Below, one piece after another: positions 3,731 through 29,140 of a stretch of 45,697 nt of DNA. Under the pieces are notes generated by a model. The model did no database searches. It worked only from the letters and a program-made list of their open reading frames with translations, and had not been told where the DNA came from. This DNA is from a virus: positions 1 to 45,697 of IMG/VR virus record IMGVR_UViG_3300025423_000034; one strand, given 5' to 3'. Each line of letters starts with the position of its first letter. The stretch's first letter is position 1. A program made the position numbers and the translations under genes.

Positions 3731-5137
3731 ATGAGTTATGTCAGCCTTTCCAATATGGGCCTCAATAATCAGCTTCAGCAGTTGTTGGAGCAAGACACGA
3801 TCGAATGGGGAACCAATGCTGGCTATCAATTAGCCAAAGATGTGTTTTTGTATCATCCGCTTGGCTACCGGATTGCTGCCGGGCCATTGAAGCTGGCGAT
3901 GTCGAAGTCGCGCGAGATTAAGTTTGCCCGTGGGCCGGAAGTGATGTTGCGCGAGGCATTTGAACGCGAGTGGAAGGCATTGGCGTGTGATAACCACATC
4001 TTTGCGACCATGACGCAATCAAGGGTGTATGGCGTGGCAGCGATGGTGATTGGTGCGCGTGGTCATCCCACTGATAAGCCGATTGATCCGTGGGAATACC
4101 AGAACTTAGATTTGTTTATTCATACCTTTGACGCATTGAACTTGGCGGGGTCGATGGTGTTGAATCAGAACCCCAATGCGATTGACTTTCAAGGCAAGAC
4201 GGATGGGATTACCGGTGCGGGTCAGCCGTATGCCAGAGCGAATTCATTGGTGATGTTGAATGAATTCCCGGTGTACTTGGCGTTCAACTCAGCGGGCTTT
4301 GGTTTCAACGGTCGCTCGGTGTACCAGCGGGCAATTTATCCGCTGCGATCCTATTTGTTGGTGATGCAAACCGATGCGATGGTGGCGCGGAAAGCCGGGT
4401 TGATTGTAGCGAAGATCAAACAAGCGGGTTCGATTGTCAGCAACATGATGGCAAAGGCTACCGGATACAAACGATCTATTCTCCAGCAAGGCGGTACGGA
4501 CAATATTCTGTCGATTGATACCGATGAAGACATCGAGGCGATTGATCTGAACAACGTCAATGAGGCATTGACAGCCAGTAGACGTAACATTCTGGAAGAC
4601 ATCGCTGCTGCGGTGGATATGCCCGCACGGTATTTGACGCAAGAAACCATGTCTACCGGGATGGCTGAAGGGACTGAAGATGCTGCTGAACTGATGCGCT
4701 ATATCAGTGATATCCGTAAGCAGATGGAACCGCTGTATGAGAAGCTCAATAAAGTCGTGGCGCACCGTGCATGGACGCGGGAATTCTTTGATGCTTGTCA
4801 GAACGAGTATCCTGAATCGTATGGATCAATGTCTTACGAAGCAGCATTCTATGATTGGTTTAACGGAATGTCTTTTGTCTGGCCTGATTTGAATGAAGAG
4901 AAAGCCAGCGATGCGGTGAAAGTGGACGAGATTAAGTTGAAGGGCATGACCGAGATTTTGCGTACCCTACTTCCTATTGCTGATCCTGAGAATCGTGCGC
5001 GGATGTTCCAGTGGGCGCAAGATAACTTGAATGAGATGGGTACAATGTTTGCGCAAGACATGGAATTGGATATTGAATCCATGCAGACTTATGTGCCGCC
5101 GGATGAAGCCGAATCGAAGTTACCCGCAGCCCGATGA
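3731..5137 (+). CDS. Portal protein (DUF1073-like)
   Basis: The 468-residue protein directly follows the large terminase. The central region and the segment ILEDIAAAVDMPARYLTQETMSTGMAEGTEDAAELMRYI (about residues 281-318) resemble DUF1073-type portals, where a helix-loop-helix with a small-residue stretch precedes the stem. It would form the dodecameric ring at one capsid vertex through which DNA passes. Its end overlaps the head morphogenesis gene by four bases (ATGA). There is no separate sign of truncation. Confidence 0.85.
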   Translation: MSYVSLSNMGLNNQLQQLLEQDTIEWGTNAGYQLAKDVFLYHPLGYRIAAGPLKLAMSKSREIKFARGPEVMLREAFEREWKALACDNHIFATMTQSRVYGVAAMVIGARGHPTDKPIDPWEYQNLDLFIHTFDALNLAGSMVLNQNPNAIDFQGKTDGITGAGQPYARANSLVMLNEFPVYLAFNSAGFGFNGRSVYQRAIYPLRSYLLVMQTDAMVARKAGLIVAKIKQAGSIVSNMMAKATGYKRSILQQGGTDNILSIDTDEDIEAIDLNNVNEALTASRRNILEDIAAAVDMPARYLTQETMSTGMAEGTEDAAELMRYISDIRKQMEPLYEKLNKVVAHRAWTREFFDACQNEYPESYGSMSYEAAFYDWFNGMSFVWPDLNEEKASDAVKVDEIKLKGMTEILRTLLPIADPENRARMFQWAQDNLNEMGTMFAQDMELDIESMQTYVPPDEAESKLPAAR

Positions 5138-5982
5138 TTGATCAAAAGAAGATTGACGAAAAGAAGAAGGACAAGAAAGACGAATTATTGTTTCTTGCCT
5201 TACTAATGTTGGCAATCAATCACTATCAAGAACAAGGCTATACCAGTGAATCTGATCTAAAACGATGGGTAAAGATACTGAAAGAATCCGCTGAAAAGAC
5301 GGTAAAAAGCCCAATAAAGCTCGAAAAAGACACAAAATCTGCATTAAATGGCACTTATAAACGGTTAATTACGCAAAAAGGTGCTTTAAAACGCCATAAA
5401 GGTATCAATAAGTCTACATTAGACAAATATGCTCCTGCTTTCAAAAAAGAACTGGATCGACGTATTTTGGCAAGCCAGAACATCATTCAATTACACCGCG
5501 AGACAGCGATCAACGATACTTTGCGAAACTTTCAAGGTTGGGCAACAAGTATTCCTCCCGGTGGTAGCCAAGCCGTGGATAAGATCGAAGAGCGCACTCG
5601 AATCAAAAAGGCGTTGGTTTCATTGCCTATCTTGGTAAGCAATGTGATTCACGACCAAGAGCACAAGTTATCCACAGTCATCCATGAATTGATTGCCGAG
5701 AAAGGCGGTGCGATTGCGATGGTATGGCATTCAATGTGGAGACTGCCGGGCTATCACTACCGTCCTGACCACAAAGAGAAAGACGAACAGGTGTATTTGT
5801 TGAAAGATAGTTGGGCGCGAGCAAAAGGATTAGTTGTTGGTGAATATTACGAAGATGACGTAGCAGTTGGAGTGCTGCCGAATTGTAAGTGTTTTGCGGA
5901 ATGGATATACGATGTGACTGATCTTCCAACTGAGCTTTTGACAAGCAAAGGTCAAGAGTGGATTGCACAGAAAGCAAAATAA
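5134..5982 (+). CDS. Head morphogenesis protein (Mu gpF / SPP1 gp7-like)
   Basis: The 282-residue product has a Lys-rich helical N-terminal half and the C-terminal signature of minor head proteins: WRLPGYHYRPDHKEKD (about 203-218), then LPNCKCFAEWIYDV (about 250-263), where the Cys pair and His would bind metal. Such proteins sit at the portal vertex and may enter with the DNA. Its start overlaps the portal stop, as in related phages. The specific function remains poorly defined in the family. Confidence 0.8.
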   Translation: MIDQKKIDEKKKDKKDELLFLALLMLAINHYQEQGYTSESDLKRWVKILKESAEKTVKSPIKLEKDTKSALNGTYKRLITQKGALKRHKGINKSTLDKYAPAFKKELDRRILASQNIIQLHRETAINDTLRNFQGWATSIPPGGSQAVDKIEERTRIKKALVSLPILVSNVIHDQEHKLSTVIHELIAEKGGAIAMVWHSMWRLPGYHYRPDHKEKDEQVYLLKDSWARAKGLVVGEYYEDDVAVGVLPNCKCFAEWIYDVTDLPTELLTSKGQEWIAQKAK

Positions 5983-6020: not shown

Positions 6021-8447
6021 ATGCCCACAACTAGCCCTGCTCAAGAGCGTTTAATGCAAGCCGCTTGCCATACTCCCGGTGGGTTTGGTGGCGTTCCACA
6101 GTCTGTTGGATGCGAGTTTGTGGGGAAATCTCCTAAGCGTAATGACATGAAAGCCTTGAATAAAGAATTGCAAGGCGTATACGCTGAATTGTCCAAGATG
6201 AAACAAGATGCGGAAGCGTGGACAAAGAAAGAAGGCAAGAATCCTGAAGGCGGTTTAAATGAAAAAGGTCGTGCTTCTTACAATAAAGAGCATGGCGCAC
6301 ATTTAAAGCGTCCGCAGCCCGAAGGCGGGGCAAGAAAAAAATCATTCTGCGCCCGCATGAAGGGCATGAAAGCCAAGTTGACTTCCGAAAAGACGGCACA
6401 TGATCCAAATAGTCGAATCAATAAGTCCTTGCGGAAGTGGAATTGCGATGAATCTATGCTGGATGCTGATCCATGCTGGGAAGGGTATGAGCAATACGGC
6501 ATGAAAGAGAAAGGCGGCAAGCAAGTGCCTAACTGTGTGCCGAAGTCCGACTTTGAGCCTTCTGGCATTATTCACCCGAACCCCTACCCTATTGGGCCAC
6601 AAGGCGGTGCAGCAACCCGTGCAGCGGGGATTATGTTTGAAGCACCGGATGGCACGATATTGATGTTGCGCCGTGGCAATGGCGGTGATTTTCCGTATCA
6701 CTTTGCGATACCCGGTGGGCATTTGAATGGTACGGAGACGGCTGAAGAGGGAGCGCGGCGCGAAGTATTTGAAGAAACAGGGTTCATGTATGAAGGCGAT
6801 TTGATTCCTGTCCACGATAATGGACAATTCATAGCGTTCTATGCGGCTGACCCTGTGCCGAAGTTTACGCCAAAGTTAAACTATGAATCCGATGGATTTG
6901 TTTGGACTGATCCTGATCATCTGCCGATGCCGATACATCCCGGTGACATTGATGCGTTTAAGGTTGCGGCTGCGGATACCGAGTTGGATGTAGCGCGGTT
7001 GATGGCTGAAGGCATTTTGCCAAGCCCCCAGCCTTTTGCAAATATGCACTTATTGGCGATTCGCATTACGGGTACGGGTTTGGCGTATCGTTCCAGCATC
7101 GAGGAACACGTTTGGCGCGACAAGTCCTTGTATATGAACGAAGATTTCTTGCAGCGTTGCAATGGTCTGACGGTGATTATGGATCACCCGGACAGCAGTA
7201 TTTTGGACAGCAAAGAATTCAAAGATAGGGCGATTGGCAGTATTCTGTTACCCTATTTCCACGGTGATGACGAAGTATGGGGCATTGCCAAAGTTTATGA
7301 TTCGGACGCAATGAAAGAGATCAGCGAGGGCGATATTAGTACAAGCCCAAGCGTGGTATTTGACGAGCGTTCGGGTAATCGGAATTTGATCACCGAGAGT
7401 GGCGATCCTTTATTGATTGAAGGAAAACCATTTTTGTTAGATCATATCGCCATTGTCACCAAACGCAGAGGCAGTAAAGGTGTTTGGGATAAGGGCGGCC
7501 CTGCCACTGGTGTACTTCTTAACAATCCTGAGGTGTCTGATATGACCGATATGAACCAAGCCAAGGCAGATGCCCAAGGCGACAAACTGGATGCGATTCT
7601 GAATGCTATCCATAATATCTCCGCTCGCGTAGATGCTATGGAAAAGAATCTTCCCCAAGAACCCCTAACCCACATTGCGGCTGGTAAGGCAGATGACGAA
7701 GCCAAGCACAAAGTACGTTCTTACGTCCGTGGTGGCGATGATGCCAAGAAAGACGATGATGACGACCGCATGGACGAAGAAATGATGGCGGCTGATCGTA
7801 AGAAGCGCAAAGACGATGATGACGACAAGATGCGCAAGGACGATGACGAAGAAGATATGCGCAAAGACAATATGATGGAAGGCCCAGCCGGACACATGAA
7901 GTTTAGTGACAAGAAGCGTAAAGATGCTGAGGGTTCTGATCCTAAAGAGCATGGCCCTGCTGGTGAAATGAAGCCTGATGACGATGATGATTGCTATTCC
8001 GATGAAGAGAAAGAGGAAATGGCGAAGAAGGCTGATGAAGAAGAAATGATGATGGCTGATGCACAAGCAAAAGCCGATTCAATCTATTCCGCATTTGGCA
8101 AGTCAGCGAGTCGTCCTTTACAGGGCGAAGGTTTGATGGCGTATCGCAAGCGTCTATTGCGTGGTTTGCAAGCGCATTCAGATTCTTACAAAGACATCAA
8201 CTTACGCAATATCAAAGACAAGGCATTGTTGGCTTTGGCTGAGAAACAGATTTTTGCAGATGCAGTGAATGCTGCGGCTCGCAATGACAGTCAGATTGGT
8301 AGCGGCAACTTGATCGCAATTGAAGAGCGTGATCGTGCTGGTCGTACCATTACCAAGTTCAAGGGTGACGTTAATTCTTGGCTGGAAAGTTTCACTGTTC
8401 CCGCCCAGCGTGTTGTTGCCTTTAACACCCAAAACAACCGTAAATAA
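6021..8447 (+). CDS. Fused DUF6321 / Nudix / DUF2213 prohead protease / scaffold polyprotein
   Basis: The 808 residues fall into five parts. Residues 4-34 form a TSPAQERLMQAACHTPGG-type phage module. Residues 36-142 match a DUF6321-like Cys- and Lys-rich domain (NPEGGLNEKGR, FCARMKGMK, RINKSLRKWNC). Residues about 200-310 form a Nudix domain with the full box from Gly233 through Arg247-Glu248 and Glu251-Glu252 to Gly254. Residues about 340-460 resemble the DUF2213 capsid maturation protease, with MDHP (His389) and STSPSV (Ser440/442). The rest is an Asp/Lys-rich, low-complexity scaffold-like region and a helical tail. Protease and scaffold in one chain are known in phages; an intact Nudix hydrolase in front is unusual. 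Likely role: guides capsid assembly, then digests itself, possibly releasing a free Nudix enzyme. Confidence 0.85.
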   Translation: MPTTSPAQERLMQAACHTPGGFGGVPQSVGCEFVGKSPKRNDMKALNKELQGVYAELSKMKQDAEAWTKKEGKNPEGGLNEKGRASYNKEHGAHLKRPQPEGGARKKSFCARMKGMKAKLTSEKTAHDPNSRINKSLRKWNCDESMLDADPCWEGYEQYGMKEKGGKQVPNCVPKSDFEPSGIIHPNPYPIGPQGGAATRAAGIMFEAPDGTILMLRRGNGGDFPYHFAIPGGHLNGTETAEEGARREVFEETGFMYEGDLIPVHDNGQFIAFYAADPVPKFTPKLNYESDGFVWTDPDHLPMPIHPGDIDAFKVAAADTELDVARLMAEGILPSPQPFANMHLLAIRITGTGLAYRSSIEEHVWRDKSLYMNEDFLQRCNGLTVIMDHPDSSILDSKEFKDRAIGSILLPYFHGDDEVWGIAKVYDSDAMKEISEGDISTSPSVVFDERSGNRNLITESGDPLLIEGKPFLLDHIAIVTKRRGSKGVWDKGGPATGVLLNNPEVSDMTDMNQAKADAQGDKLDAILNAIHNISARVDAMEKNLPQEPLTHIAAGKADDEAKHKVRSYVRGGDDAKKDDDDDRMDEEMMAADRKKRKDDDDDKMRKDDDEEDMRKDNMMEGPAGHMKFSDKKRKDAEGSDPKEHGPAGEMKPDDDDDCYSDEEKEEMAKKADEEEMMMADAQAKADSIYSAFGKSASRPLQGEGLMAYRKRLLRGLQAHSDSYKDINLRNIKDKALLALAEKQIFADAVNAAARNDSQIGSGNLIAIEERDRAGRTITKFKGDVNSWLESFTVPAQRVVAFNTQNNRK

Positions 8448-9095: not shown

Positions 9096-10127
9096 ATGTC
9101 AGCATTCGCACCCAGTTTTATTACCGCCAATCCTCACTTTATGATGCCTGAGTTCATCATTCAGTATTCATTGGCATCCGGCGCATTCACTACCTTGGCA
9201 ACTGAGAAGCCCATGACCCGCTTGGGAACTGGCGATCTTTATGTGTATGCCAAGAAAATGCAATTGACCACTCAAGTTTCTGCAAATCAGTCCACTGTGA
9301 ACCAATTGCCAAGCGCAACGGTGATCCCCAACATGATCAGCACTCCTACCTATCGCATTCAAACCCGTGCGCAGTATGACGGTTTTGATGAGACTGCTGC
9401 TGGTCATTGGGGTTTCTCTCTGCCCGAAGCGATGCGTTTAGCTGCACGTCAAGGTATTGCGCAGCAGATGCGTAATGCACTGTTGTATGGTTTCAACAAC
9501 GCCAATTCTGGTGAAGGTCTGTTGAACACTGCGGGCGCGACCACCGTAACCCTTCCTGCTGACAGCAATGGCAACACCACACTGTCAACATGGGATTCTG
9601 GTCAACTTGCACAGTTCTTCTTGAACTTGATTGGCGGTTTGAAAGTTCGTACTCTGCAAATTGGTCAGCCCCTACGTTTAGTGTTCTTGGCTCCTCAGCG
9701 CGTAATCAGTCAGTTGTCTTACGGCGGTATTGTGCAGTTGACCCAATTCCAACGTATTGGTGCAGGTGTTGAGACTGCTGCTGGTGTAATCGAAACCGTT
9801 GCTCAATGGGCGGGCGGTGACGATGTGTCTTTCGCAGTGGACGATACCCTGATTGGTCAAGGTGCTGGCGGTTCAGATGCGATCCTGTTGATTGCACCAG
9901 AAATCAAGATTCCTAAAGCCAACAACCAAATCAACACCAACATTTTTGCAACTCTCACACCGAACACCACAGCAACTAGCTTGATGTTGATTGACGTGGC
10001 TGCTCCTACTGAGATTCCTACTCCCTTGCCTGATGCCGCATTGACTGTACTTTTCACCATGAGAGCTACCTCAGGTTGGGTACTACGTCCAGAAGCACTG
10101 ACCGTTTTAAGCGCGTTTTACTCTTAA
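9096..10127 (+). CDS. Major capsid protein (DUF2184-like)
   Basis: The 343-residue product follows protease and cement genes, as expected for the capsid subunit. It contains the RAQYDGFDETAAGHWGFSLPEAMRLAARQGI segment (about residues 90-120) and a NNANSGEGLLNTAGATTVTLP stretch typical of DUF2184 HK97-fold capsid proteins. No delta domain is present; scaffold function lies in the upstream polyprotein. Ribosome site AAAGGATAACTAGCC. A strong terminator follows 16 bases after the stop, so high-level expression of head genes ends here. Confidence 0.85.
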   Translation: MSAFAPSFITANPHFMMPEFIIQYSLASGAFTTLATEKPMTRLGTGDLYVYAKKMQLTTQVSANQSTVNQLPSATVIPNMISTPTYRIQTRAQYDGFDETAAGHWGFSLPEAMRLAARQGIAQQMRNALLYGFNNANSGEGLLNTAGATTVTLPADSNGNTTLSTWDSGQLAQFFLNLIGGLKVRTLQIGQPLRLVFLAPQRVISQLSYGGIVQLTQFQRIGAGVETAAGVIETVAQWAGGDDVSFAVDDTLIGQGAGGSDAILLIAPEIKIPKANNQINTNIFATLTPNTTATSLMLIDVAAPTEIPTPLPDAALTVLFTMRATSGWVLRPEALTVLSAFYS

Positions 10128-24493: not shown

Positions 24494-27400
24494 ATGGCTC
24501 AGTCCGGTTATAGCAAAATACTAATTTACGGTTCTGGTACTACTGGTAACACGCCTTCGGCCTCTAATATGACCAATAGCTCTGCTGGTGCAGAGTTAGC
24601 GATCAATTACGCTGATGGCATTCTGTTCTACAAGAACGGTAGTGGCACGGTTACTAAATTAGCTTCTGCATCAACCGCAGCGGGCAATTTGCCCGGTGGC
24701 GCAGCGGGAACAGTTGTATACCAAAGTGCTACCGGAACCACCGCCTATACTGCCGCCGGAACATCGGGGCAGTATTTGGTGAGTGGCGGCACTGGCTCTC
24801 CGACATGGGCCACAATATCTTCAACCTTGGTTTCTTCCTTTAGCGGAGGCAGCACAGGGTTGACACCCAATTCAGCCACGACCGGCGCGATTACGCTTGG
24901 CGGTACGTTGGCAACGGGTTATGGCGGTACAGGACTGACATCCTTTACAAGCGGTGGTGCGGTGTACGCGACCAGCACATCGGCTTTGACTACCGGAACG
25001 CTGCCTGTTTCTGCGGGCGGTTCTGGTGTCACTGTTAGTACAGGTGCAAGTTCAAACGTATTACGCGATGCAAATGCAAACATTACTGCAAACGCATTCT
25101 TTGGTGGTTATACAAATGTTGCTGCATCGGGAACACAGATTACATTATTGGCTTCATCGACACCTGTTTATACCGTATCCGGATCAGGTGGACAGGTTAT
25201 TAAGTTGCCTGATGCAACTACGCTGCCGATTGGCGCGATTTATTCGTTTAACAATAATCAAACCAGTGGTGCGATTACTGTAAACAACAATTCAAATACA
25301 TTAGTGGTATCCGTGCCTTCTGGTGCGTATACGAATGTTGTATTGCTTACAAATGCAACTGCTCCGGGAACATGGGATCGTCACGACGAAGCCCCTTCTA
25401 ATGTCTCTTGGTCAACCAATACATTGGATTATGCTGGTTCGATTACCTCTGCGACATGGAATGGATCGACTGTTGCGGTCAACCGTGGCGGAACGGGGAT
25501 TACCTCTTTGGCATCCGGTGCATTGCCTTATGGTAATGGCACATCTGCGTTTAATGCTTTAACGATTGGTACATCTGGTTATGTGCTGACATCGAGCGGT
25601 ACTGCGCCGCAGTGGACAGCACAATCTTCATTGGTGATTGGTACTGCGACTAACTTAGCCGGTGGTGCTAATGGCTCAGTGCCTTATCAATCGGGTGCGG
25701 GTACGACTACTTTTTTAGCGGGCAACACGTCTACCACACCCAATTTCTATACTTCTACGGGTACAGGATCGGCTGCACAAGCACCCACGCTCACCAGTTC
25801 GACAGGATCGGGTAACGTAGTATTAGCAACAAGCCCAACATTAGTTACACCAGCATTAGGAACCCCAAGTTCTGCAACTTTAACTAATGCAACGGGTTTA
25901 CCAATATCAACTGGCGTTTCTGGTCTTGGTACTGGTGTTGCAACTGCATTGGCAGTAAACACCGGATCAGCGGGCGCAGTTGTGCTTTTCAACGGATCAT
26001 TGGGAACCCCGGCGAGCGGAACGGTGACAAACCTTACCGGAACTGCATCTATTAATATTAACGGCACAGTTGGAGCAACAACTCCCACTACCGGAGCGTT
26101 TAGCACGGTCAGTGCGTCAGGACAGATCACAAGTACGGTTTCAACTGGAACCGCTCCATTTGTGGTTTCAAGCACTACTCAAGTTGCTAATTTAAACGTA
26201 GCAACAGCAGGAACTGCTACAACTGCAACGAACGTAGCAAGCGGCACAACAGGTGCAATTCACTATCAATCTGCACCTTCTACAACAGCTTTTTTATCTG
26301 GCAATACGACTACAACACCACAATTTGTTACTTCAATAGGAACTGGATCGGCTGCTCAAGCACCAACTTTAACGTCCAGCACCGGTACAGGTAATGTGGT
26401 GTTGGCAACTTCACCAACATTGGTGACACCGGCATTGGGAACGCCTAGCGCATTGGTTGGAACTAACATTACGGGTACGGCTTCTGGATTGTCTATCGGC
26501 GGTAATGCTGCAACTGCTACCACTGCTACTAACCAATCCGGTGGTACTGTAAATGCTACGTCTATCACTAACTCAGGCTTGACCGCAGGGCGTGTTGTTT
26601 ACACCACAACGGGTGGGTTAGAGACGGCTTCGGCTAACCTGACATTTAACGGTACAACGCTAACAACTGCTAATGACGCTTCTATTAATGGTCTGACGGT
26701 GGGTAAGGGTGCGGGTGCTGTTACAACCAACACGGCATTTGGATTAAATGCTTTATCTACAAACAGCACAGGTAGTGCTAATACAGCAGTTGGTGATAAT
26801 GCTTTAACGAGTAACTCAACCGGAACTGATAATTCTGCATTTGGACTAAACGCATTAAATAAAAATACAGCAAGCTATAATTCAGCTTTTGGCGTTAGTT
26901 CTTTATATGCGAATACATCAGGTACATTCAACACTGGATATGGCTGGAATTCATTACCAGCAAACACAACTGGTTCTTACAATGTTGCGGTAGGCCCATA
27001 CTCACTAAACGCCAACACCACCGCATCTAACAATACAGCAGTAGGTTATCAAGCTGGGTATAGTAATACTACAGGTGATAGAAATTCATTCTTCGGTAGA
27101 GTAGCTGGATATAGCAATACAACCTCAAGTGGCAACAACTTTTTTGGTCAGTATGCTGGTTACTCAAATACAACAGGAACAGAAAACTGTGCTTTTGGTG
27201 GTTCAGCAGCATCAAACTCTGCTTTGCAATCAAATAGCACAGGTAGCTACAATACTGCATTAGGTAATGCTGCGTTAGGCTCTAACACATCCGCATCTAA
27301 TAACACCGCAGTGGGGTATCAGGCTGGGTATAGTAATACTACAGGTGCTTACAATACTTTCTTAGGTAGGGTAGCTGGATATACAAATACTACAGCCCAA

Positions 27401-29140
27401 GAAAATACAGCCGTAGGTAATGCTGCTTTATATCAAAATTCTACTGGCGCTCAAATTACTGCATTGGGTTCTAATGCTTTATATAACAATACTACAGGCT
27501 CCAACAATACAGCTTTAGGTAACTACGCACTCCAAGCCAACACCACCGCATCTAATAACACAGCAGTAGGTTATCAGGCTAGTTATAGTAATACGACAGG
27601 TACAAATGTTGTTGCTATTGGTTACCAATCAATGTATTCAAATACAACTGGGGGTTATACAGTAGCGATTGGTAGACAGGCCGGTTATTCTTGGAGTAAT
27701 GCTTCTGAAGGTAATGGTTCAGTCTTTATTGGTGATAGTGCCGGTAAAAATACTACAGGACATGATAATACTTTTGTAGGTGCTAGTAGTGGATTTGCAA
27801 CCACAACAGCATTATGGAGTGCAGCATTCGGTAGTGGGGCATTACAATCAACTACAACTGGTAATTACAATACTGCAATCGGAGCACAATCGCTCCAAGC
27901 CAACACCACCGCCAATACCAACACGGCGGTAGGATATCAATCCCTATACAGCAATACGACTGGCGCACCCAATACTGCTGTCGGCACAACGTCTTTATAT
28001 TCAAATACAACAGGAACAAACAATTCCGCTTTTGGTACTGACGCTTTATACGCAAACACTACCGGAGGAAGTAATACAGCGTTAGGTCGTTCTGCCTTAG
28101 TCGCCAACACCACCGCATCTAACAACACAGCAGTAGGTTATCAAGCTCTTTACTCCAACACCACCGCTTCTAACAACACCGCATTTGGATATTTGGCTGG
28201 ATTTAATAATACAACAGGTGGTGATAGCACAGGTATAGGTGCGTATGCTTTATACTCAAATACAACAGGAAATTACAACACGGCGGTTGGTGAAAATGCT
28301 TTAGGGTTAAACACCACCGCTAATAACAACACAGCAGTAGGTTATCAGGCTGGGTATAATAATACGACAGGTTCTTCAAGCACTTTTGTTGGTTACCAAG
28401 CTGGTTATGCTTCAACAGGAAATACAAACTGTAGTATTGGATTTCAAGCTGGATATTACTGCACAGGAACCGCAAATACATTTGTTGGACCAAATAGTAC
28501 TGGTGCCTTGATTACATCAGGCTCAAAAAATACAGTTATTGGTGGATTCCAAGGCAACTCGGGCGGCCTAGACCTCCGCACAGCATCTAACTACATCGTG
28601 CTGAGTGATGGGGATGGGAATCCTAGAGGTATTTTTGATGGTAGTGGTAACTTTATTGTAAATGGAACTGCTACAACTGGTGCAGGAAAAAGCAATTTAT
28701 ATTTTGCATCAGGGTCAAATGGATTTAGCGTAGTTTCAACAGATAACACTACAAATGCTTCATTTATGCAAATGTATGCTAATGGCTCATTTTGTGGAAA
28801 CATTACTCGTGTAGGAACTACTAGCGCAGTCCTATATGGTTCTGCTTCGGACTATCGTTTAAAAACAAATGTATTTCCAATGATTGGGGCATTAGACACA
28901 GTTTCTAAATTAAACCCTGTTACCTATGATTGGAAATCTGGAGGCTCTTCACAAGGTTTTATTGCACATGAACTTCAAGCAGTTTTACCTGATGCTGTTA
29001 CTGGTAAAAAAGATGATGTTGATTTAGAAGGAAACCCAAAATACCAAACTATCGACACTTCATTTTTAGTAGCCACATTGACAGCAGCAATACAAGAACT
29101 TAAAGCTGAATTTGACGCATACAAATCAACCCATCCATAA
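24494..29140 (+). CDS. Giant tail fibre with YadA-like repeats and S74 chaperone, 1548 residues
   Basis: The N-terminus (SGYSKILIYGSGTTG, ELAINYADGILFYK) matches the module of the preceding fibre. Residues about 1-740 are GTGN/LVTPALGTPSA-type fibre repeats. Residues about 750-1310 are tandem NTAVGYQAGYSNTTG-like repeats similar to YadA/Hep-Hag adhesin heads. The last 97 residues form an intramolecular chaperone (peptidase S74), with ASDYRLKTN starting near 1451. In such proteins, autocleavage before the Ser of SDYRLK releases the trimeric fibre after folding, so mature length would be about 1451. It is probably the main receptor-binding fibre. The repeat region looks AT-richer than the first half. 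Confidence 0.9.
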   Translation: MAQSGYSKILIYGSGTTGNTPSASNMTNSSAGAELAINYADGILFYKNGSGTVTKLASASTAAGNLPGGAAGTVVYQSATGTTAYTAAGTSGQYLVSGGTGSPTWATISSTLVSSFSGGSTGLTPNSATTGAITLGGTLATGYGGTGLTSFTSGGAVYATSTSALTTGTLPVSAGGSGVTVSTGASSNVLRDANANITANAFFGGYTNVAASGTQITLLASSTPVYTVSGSGGQVIKLPDATTLPIGAIYSFNNNQTSGAITVNNNSNTLVVSVPSGAYTNVVLLTNATAPGTWDRHDEAPSNVSWSTNTLDYAGSITSATWNGSTVAVNRGGTGITSLASGALPYGNGTSAFNALTIGTSGYVLTSSGTAPQWTAQSSLVIGTATNLAGGANGSVPYQSGAGTTTFLAGNTSTTPNFYTSTGTGSAAQAPTLTSSTGSGNVVLATSPTLVTPALGTPSSATLTNATGLPISTGVSGLGTGVATALAVNTGSAGAVVLFNGSLGTPASGTVTNLTGTASININGTVGATTPTTGAFSTVSASGQITSTVSTGTAPFVVSSTTQVANLNVATAGTATTATNVASGTTGAIHYQSAPSTTAFLSGNTTTTPQFVTSIGTGSAAQAPTLTSSTGTGNVVLATSPTLVTPALGTPSALVGTNITGTASGLSIGGNAATATTATNQSGGTVNATSITNSGLTAGRVVYTTTGGLETASANLTFNGTTLTTANDASINGLTVGKGAGAVTTNTAFGLNALSTNSTGSANTAVGDNALTSNSTGTDNSAFGLNALNKNTASYNSAFGVSSLYANTSGTFNTGYGWNSLPANTTGSYNVAVGPYSLNANTTASNNTAVGYQAGYSNTTGDRNSFFGRVAGYSNTTSSGNNFFGQYAGYSNTTGTENCAFGGSAASNSALQSNSTGSYNTALGNAALGSNTSASNNTAVGYQAGYSNTTGAYNTFLGRVAGYTNTTAQENTAVGNAALYQNSTGAQITALGSNALYNNTTGSNNTALGNYALQANTTASNNTAVGYQASYSNTTGTNVVAIGYQSMYSNTTGGYTVAIGRQAGYSWSNASEGNGSVFIGDSAGKNTTGHDNTFVGASSGFATTTALWSAAFGSGALQSTTTGNYNTAIGAQSLQANTTANTNTAVGYQSLYSNTTGAPNTAVGTTSLYSNTTGTNNSAFGTDALYANTTGGSNTALGRSALVANTTASNNTAVGYQALYSNTTASNNTAFGYLAGFNNTTGGDSTGIGAYALYSNTTGNYNTAVGENALGLNTTANNNTAVGYQAGYNNTTGSSSTFVGYQAGYASTGNTNCSIGFQAGYYCTGTANTFVGPNSTGALITSGSKNTVIGGFQGNSGGLDLRTASNYIVLSDGDGNPRGIFDGSGNFIVNGTATTGAGKSNLYFASGSNGFSVVSTDNTTNASFMQMYANGSFCGNITRVGTTSAVLYGSASDYRLKTNVFPMIGALDTVSKLNPVTYDWKSGGSSQGFIAHELQAVLPDAVTGKKDDVDLEGNPKYQTIDTSFLVATLTAAIQELKAEFDAYKSTHP
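26740..28440 (+). repeat. Tandem coding repeats in giant fibre gene
   Basis: Imperfect repeats of about 45 to 60 bases encode NTAVGYQAGYSNTTG-like units. Several blocks such as CACCGCATCTAACAACAC and GCAGTAGGTTATCA recur almost unchanged (for example near 27015, 27295, 27540, 28105 and 28320). The frame stays open throughout, so gain or loss of whole units by recombination would alter fibre length without disrupting it. Confidence 0.85.

Follow-up and report, generated by a model that had tools for sequence, protein, structure and literature searches.

The gene at 6021-8447 of the window, which is the whole stretch of 45,697 nucleotides of viral DNA that was analysed, encodes a T4/herpes-type prohead protease and scaffold that also carries a Nudix hydrolase, probably active judging from its conserved catalytic box. 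While the domain anatomy of this 808-aa protein is nearly certain, its function is a matter of weighing. In the best explanation, which we hold to be about evenly poised between right and wrong, the protease-scaffold would carry the Nudix as an accessory cargo that stays in the head, enters the host along with the DNA and acts on a nucleotide-diphosphate compound at an early stage of infection.

The gene belongs to a head module ordered as TerS, TerL, portal, MuF-like protein, the 6021-8447 gene, one further gene and major capsid protein (Table 1). It is thus placed between the portal and major capsid genes, as is the case for prohead proteases of the T4 gp21 or herpes type. Its product matched phrog_6216 over residues 199-803 (PHROGs, E 3e-149), and the major capsid gene was also matched by phrog_264 major head protein (E 5e-10) and weakly by PF09950. 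The order proposed by the sequence-only reading, that is DUF6321 followed by an intact Nudix and a DUF2213 protease, was borne out by Pfam at residues 72-140, 199-306 and 363-484, with all three calls exceeding the Pfam gathering scores. These scores, the Nudix fold of the model described below and a 99% identical copy of the protein on a second contig (L008/L010) rule out a misread frame or a chance match. The phage, which comes from fresh water, has a contractile-tail gene set, in which a tail sheath gene was found. Elsewhere in the window, a protein of 1548 aa at 24494-29140 ends in a Peptidase_S74 chaperone domain and is probably a tail fibre or spike. Moreover, a fragment with the central domain of DNA polymerase III beta (PF02767, E 8e-13), labelled RusA-like by PHROGs, is present at 520-1179; gp15 of phage Bcep781, near the head genes, bears the same annotation.

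Table 1. Features of the 6021-8447 gene and of its head-module neighbours in the window.
Feature	Position	Strand	Basis or remark
Gene for N-motif, DUF6321, Nudix, DUF2213 protease and scaffold (808 aa, ATG start)	6021..8447	+	
N-terminal motif, residues 1-34 (MPTTSPAQERLMQAACHTPGGFGGVPQSVGCEFV)	6021..6122	+	phrog_16759; common to Shewanella phage QDWS
DUF6321, residues 72-140	6234..6440	+	Pfam, E 3.6e-21
PCW...VPNCVP motif, residues 148-174, between DUF6321 and Nudix	6462..6542	+	recurs in many relatives
Nudix hydrolase domain, fold at residues 195-319	6603..6977	+	Pfam and model
Nudix box, G233 to G254 (GHLNGTETAEEGARREVFEETG)	6717..6782	+	sequence, per-position conservation
DUF2213 prohead-protease domain, residues 321-503	6981..7529	+	Pfam and model
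H389, candidate catalytic His	7185..7187	+	invariant, 55/55
S440, candidate nucleophile (STSP)	7338..7340	+	invariant, 55/55
H475, candidate third residue (LDHIA)	7443..7445	+	invariant, 55/55
Scaffold stretch, acidic, coiled, low confidence, residues 504-670	7530..8030	+	low pLDDT, long helices
C-terminal scaffold module, conserved, residues 676-800	8046..8420	+	AQxxADS...GExxxYRxRL kept
Portal protein (context)	3731..5137	+	PF06381, E 2.8e-11
MuF-like head morphogenesis protein (context)	5134..5982	+	phrog_324, E 1e-18
Major capsid protein (context)	9096..10127	+	phrog_6671, E 3e-138

The Nudix domain (PF00293) was recognised with an E of 1.1e-12 and 48.6 bits against a cut-off of 21.1. Its box reads G233-x5-E239-x7-R247-E248-x2-E251-E252-x-G254, and the full GX5EX7REUXEEXGU pattern is present from G233 to F255; the boundaries Gly233 to Gly254 given earlier, with the catalytic Glu and Arg all in place, match the sequence exactly. 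An AlphaFold2 model of the whole protein, built on a 55-sequence alignment, was of high confidence at residues 201-490, with 92-197 and a large part of 545-656 poorly modelled. Its Nudix part (pLDDT about 95) resembles 4dyw over 118 residues (VIA Z 16.1, rmsd 2.2).

The box has been well kept in related proteins. Among 55 non-redundant relatives, a wider set ranked by whole-protein similarity and therefore favouring Nudix carriers, 52 had a real Nudix and 51 of these kept both R247-E248 and E251-E252; the sole loss of a catalytic Glu was an E252K change in an Erwinia prophage copy (L098, 4562-6178). The search was repeated with the protease domain alone as query to avoid this ranking bias, and Nudix was then found in 79 of the 80 nearest relatives, with RExxEE intact in all 79 carriers. 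Loss of box residues in close relatives would have spoken against a working enzyme; for the RExxEE residues, it was seen in none of these carriers. The strict box pattern was missed in 19 of the 79, one of which is cut by a contig end while the others have one extra residue ahead of RE. In the nearest relatives, the median pairwise dN/dS, calculated from pairs that are not independent, was 0.15 for Nudix and 0.08 for the protease. The Nudix is thus under purifying selection, which is most simply explained if the enzyme has to remain active, as had been supposed from the conserved box.

The sequence gave no decisive signature of the substrate. Matches to NCBIfam subfamily models were weak and all far below cut-off, including the NudE model (E 1e-3 to 1e-4), which did no better than MutT. 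A Pro some 16 residues beyond the box is a mark of ADP-ribose pyrophosphatases; the window protein has Ile at that position, and Pro was present in 8 of 58 aligned domains. No consistent marker residue was observed downstream of the box among these 58 Nudix domains. Finally, as regards a link to known defence systems, PADLOC gave only a weak match over the Nudix to one uncharacterised candidate model.

The part that follows the Nudix was identified as DUF2213 (PF09979, residues 363-484, E 9.1e-6, 26.2 bits against a cut-off of 22), a domain matched at E 1e-3 in 28 of the 55 wider-set relatives. Folded alone, it was modelled with a pLDDT of 90. Its best PDB match was T4 gp21 (5jbl, Z 10.3, 131 residues, rmsd 2.8), with proteases of herpesviruses coming next at Z 5-7; the predicted fold agrees with the maturation-type protease that had been proposed there. 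A search of solved structures by sequence with the protease profile yielded no credible relative, so that the link to gp21 comes from the fold comparison only. H389, S440 and H475 were found in all 55 relatives, and they align with the corresponding His of the Bcep781 and Bm1 DUF2213 proteases, the Ser of LSCGY in Bcep781 and the His of NHVAL in Bcep781, respectively. We infer that these three are the catalytic residues. Downstream, the scaffold stretch (504-670) differs in length among relatives, and the C-terminal scaffold module is encoded by a separate reading frame in L033 and L040.

The Nudix is found on different genes across phages, always in the same region. Seven Nudix-bearing complete isolate genomes were compared and each contained exactly one Nudix, in the head module. 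It is borne by the protease in PdC23, Chronis, QDWS and YenM_29.18, while in Bcep781 it forms the C-terminal part of the portal, the DUF2213 protease of that phage being devoid of it. Bm1 has a stand-alone Nudix gene between a MuF-like gene and the protease, and in Sonali the domain lies between portal and MuF (portal-Nudix-MuF). In a tree of the domain, a single group of protease-fused Nudix was neither proven nor rejected (p-AU 0.48), and a separate origin from the portal-fused domains was not proven either. This distribution bears on a first rival explanation, in which the Nudix does its work in the infected cell's cytoplasm, ahead of assembly or while it proceeds, cleaning up nucleotide pools, RNA caps or defence signals; its fusion to an abundant late protein would serve expression alone. 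Any active enzyme would show such box conservation and selection, and phage Nudix genes do occur alone, some of them beside tail genes. Nevertheless, a single Nudix per complete genome examined, placed in the head module whether or not the protease bears it, does not fit easily with this explanation, and late expression would probably come too late for most defences. We therefore regard it as unlikely, while leaving it a real share of the probability.

A second rival explanation is that the Nudix serves as a nucleotide sensor or regulator of the protease or portal during assembly. The model lends it some credit: the Nudix ends in a helix (307-316), the protease opens with another (321-329), and the junction (about 307-336) is short and of high confidence, with no disordered linker. 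In addition, the fusion has lasted across divergent phages. On the contrary, natural absence of the whole domain leaves the protease and scaffold in place. L149, a sequence with no ambiguous bases, encodes full-length N-motif, protease and scaffold but no Nudix, and the proteins of Rac-SA53, Apl-pPE4 and Serratia oryzae (L099), all of which retain protease and scaffold, were also found to be without it. Relocation of the Nudix to another place was ruled out in the genome records of Rac-SA53 and Apl-pPE4, and no Nudix was found in four other Nudix-less contig records, which may be fragments. Since protease and scaffold persist in such cases, the Nudix is accessory and dispensable for assembly in these phages. 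This also disfavours, as a required role, the nucleotide sensing that the sequence-only reading had put forward. The Nudix-free protease of Bcep781 likewise argues against a regulator, and a domain that has kept all its catalytic Glu is more likely to turn over a substrate than just to bind one. A sensor or regulator is thus quite improbable.

The same junction bears on the fate of the Nudix. In phages with a two-ORF version (e.g. L033 and L040), it is the scaffold that is encoded apart, and Nudix and protease share one reading frame. Together with the ordered junction, this suggests that Nudix and protease are likely a unit, and a free Nudix is not favoured. The earlier proposal that the protease frees the enzyme inside the prohead is weakened to the same extent; the natural places for cleavage would rather be the disordered stretches on either side of the unit. 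In T4, head proteases of the gp21 fold digest core proteins and themselves, and the Nudix could likewise be a passenger of little use that is packed after synthesis and then degraded into peptides along with the scaffold, a very improbable outcome for a domain that is under purifying selection and has retained its catalytic residues near-perfectly.

The region ahead of the protease was also found to vary by whole pieces. DUF6321 occurs in 35 of the 81 near relatives, a count that takes in the window, and L161 and L156 respectively contain and lack it at one spot (VPRFGSD...DPCWEDYHQ) in an otherwise similar sequence, so that it behaves as a mobile cassette in these comparisons. DUF6321 is thus not a trait of the window alone, as an overly narrow pattern (K[KR]SFCAR) applied to a different set had suggested. 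L176 and L177 are nearly identical over the compared stretch except that their first 40 residues are exchanged (MPFKSEQQRKAMYAAASGHSNIGIPKSVGEKF versus MPATSPAQERLMQAAAHTPGGYGGVPQAVGKEF), a clean swap that suggests recombination of a short N-terminal tag. Moreover, L087 (4251-6710) encodes an 820-aa protein with a PBECR1 nuclease, an effector domain known from phages, placed between N-motif and Nudix, followed by the DUF2213 protease, and in L075 and L076 another domain occupies the Nudix slot. From the DUF6321 cassette, the N-motif swap and the PBECR1 insertion, the N-terminal slot is seen, at the level of sequence, as one that accepts exchangeable parts. A bolder proposal, which we make tentatively and would not expect to hold in full, is that the protease N-terminus is a swappable cargo slot (Nudix, PBECR1, DUF6321 and others) by which effectors are loaded into the head, the Nudix being delivered joined to the protease as a counter-defence enzyme that cleaves nucleotide signals. 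Besides, matches to the window protein were obtained in 527 phage records, the majority from cyanophages and the majority via the DUF6321 region, and in Synechococcus phage Sf-CH8 a DUF6321 protein (L190, 3131-4339) is encoded with the small terminase on one side and virion structural genes on the other.

The reading of the Nudix as a head-delivered accessory enzyme draws on the intact box, the Nudix fold, the signature of selection, the protease fold with its invariant His-Ser-His, the head-module position and the natural absence of the domain without loss of protease or scaffold. The PBECR1 effector in the same slot of L087, as well as the tail sheath of the window phage taken with the concentration of phage Nudix in myoviruses, also point in this direction. 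According to this reading, the scaffold tail would draw the protein into the prohead, and its flexible parts, at the N-terminus and in the scaffold, would be cut during maturation. The Nudix would then remain in the head, probably without being severed from the protease core, and enter the host together with the DNA, where it may early on break a nucleotide-diphosphate compound such as an alarmone, an NAD or ADP-ribose derivative or an RNA cap. If the Nudix is indeed delivered by the particle, the phage would face host nucleotide signals ahead of any expression of its own genes, and the head protease would serve as a loading device as well. Natural comparison pairs are at hand, namely L149 and its neighbours (Nudix absent or present), L161 and L156 (DUF6321 present or absent), and Bcep781 and Chronis (Nudix on the portal or on the protease).

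Fusions of Nudix to MuF, portal and capsid-processing serine peptidase have been reported, with a concentration of phage Nudix in myoviruses, and packaging followed by injection was predicted for the head-fused ones (Iyer et al. 2022, PMC9503650). Packaging and injection are plausible here as in that prediction, judging from gene position only. A NUDIX-DUF2213 association taken from Pfam is also listed in PMC8770471. The combination is therefore less unusual than the sequence-only reading had supposed, and a unique architecture is ruled out by this report, by PHROG 6216, which spans the fusion, and by several cultured phages that carry it; several such genes are already named NUDIX hydrolase in databases. 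What is new here are the retention counts, the natural absence of Nudix, its head-module position on different genes, the cassette slot and the likely Nudix-protease unit. The RothD paper describes a conserved structural region and contains neither virion proteomics nor mention of Nudix, and nothing was found in the literature on Bcep781 virion content with Nudix.

The window protein shows the same capsid-peptidase fusion as the head-fused Nudix of Iyer et al. 2022 (PMC9503650), its locus differing by the addition of DUF6321 and the PCW...VPNCVP motif on the upstream side; as for the T4 NudE clade named in that work, its match to the NudE model is weak and below cut-off. When the same architecture was sought in other phages, Nudix-DUF2213-scaffold proteins were found in Klebsiella phages Chronis and RothD, Pantoea phage PdC23 (Certevirus), Yersinia phage vB_YenM_29.18 and Shewanella phage QDWS. 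These PHROG 6216 phages share the gene order of the window (TerL, portal, next gene, protease gene, next gene, capsid) and their proteins are 39-42% identical to that of the window but without DUF6321; the enterobacterial ones start directly with the Nudix, unlike the window protein. The closest Nudix not fused to a protease in the phage collection is that of Bcep781-like phages (Naesvirus), at about 41-44% identity. Like the window phage they have a DUF2213 protease in the same module, whereas their Nudix is on the portal.

T4 gp21 and the herpesvirus assemblins share the fold of the window protease and, for its candidate catalytic residues, the conserved H, S, H order, with no recognisable sequence similarity to it, and they are not known to carry a Nudix. 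Finally, polyvalent phage proteins are multi-domain virion proteins with effector domains, including some that join PBECR to MuF or to the portal (Iyer et al. 2017, PMC5512222). Unlike them, the window protein has one recognised enzyme domain besides the protease, while its relative L087 has two effector-type domains, PBECR1 and Nudix.
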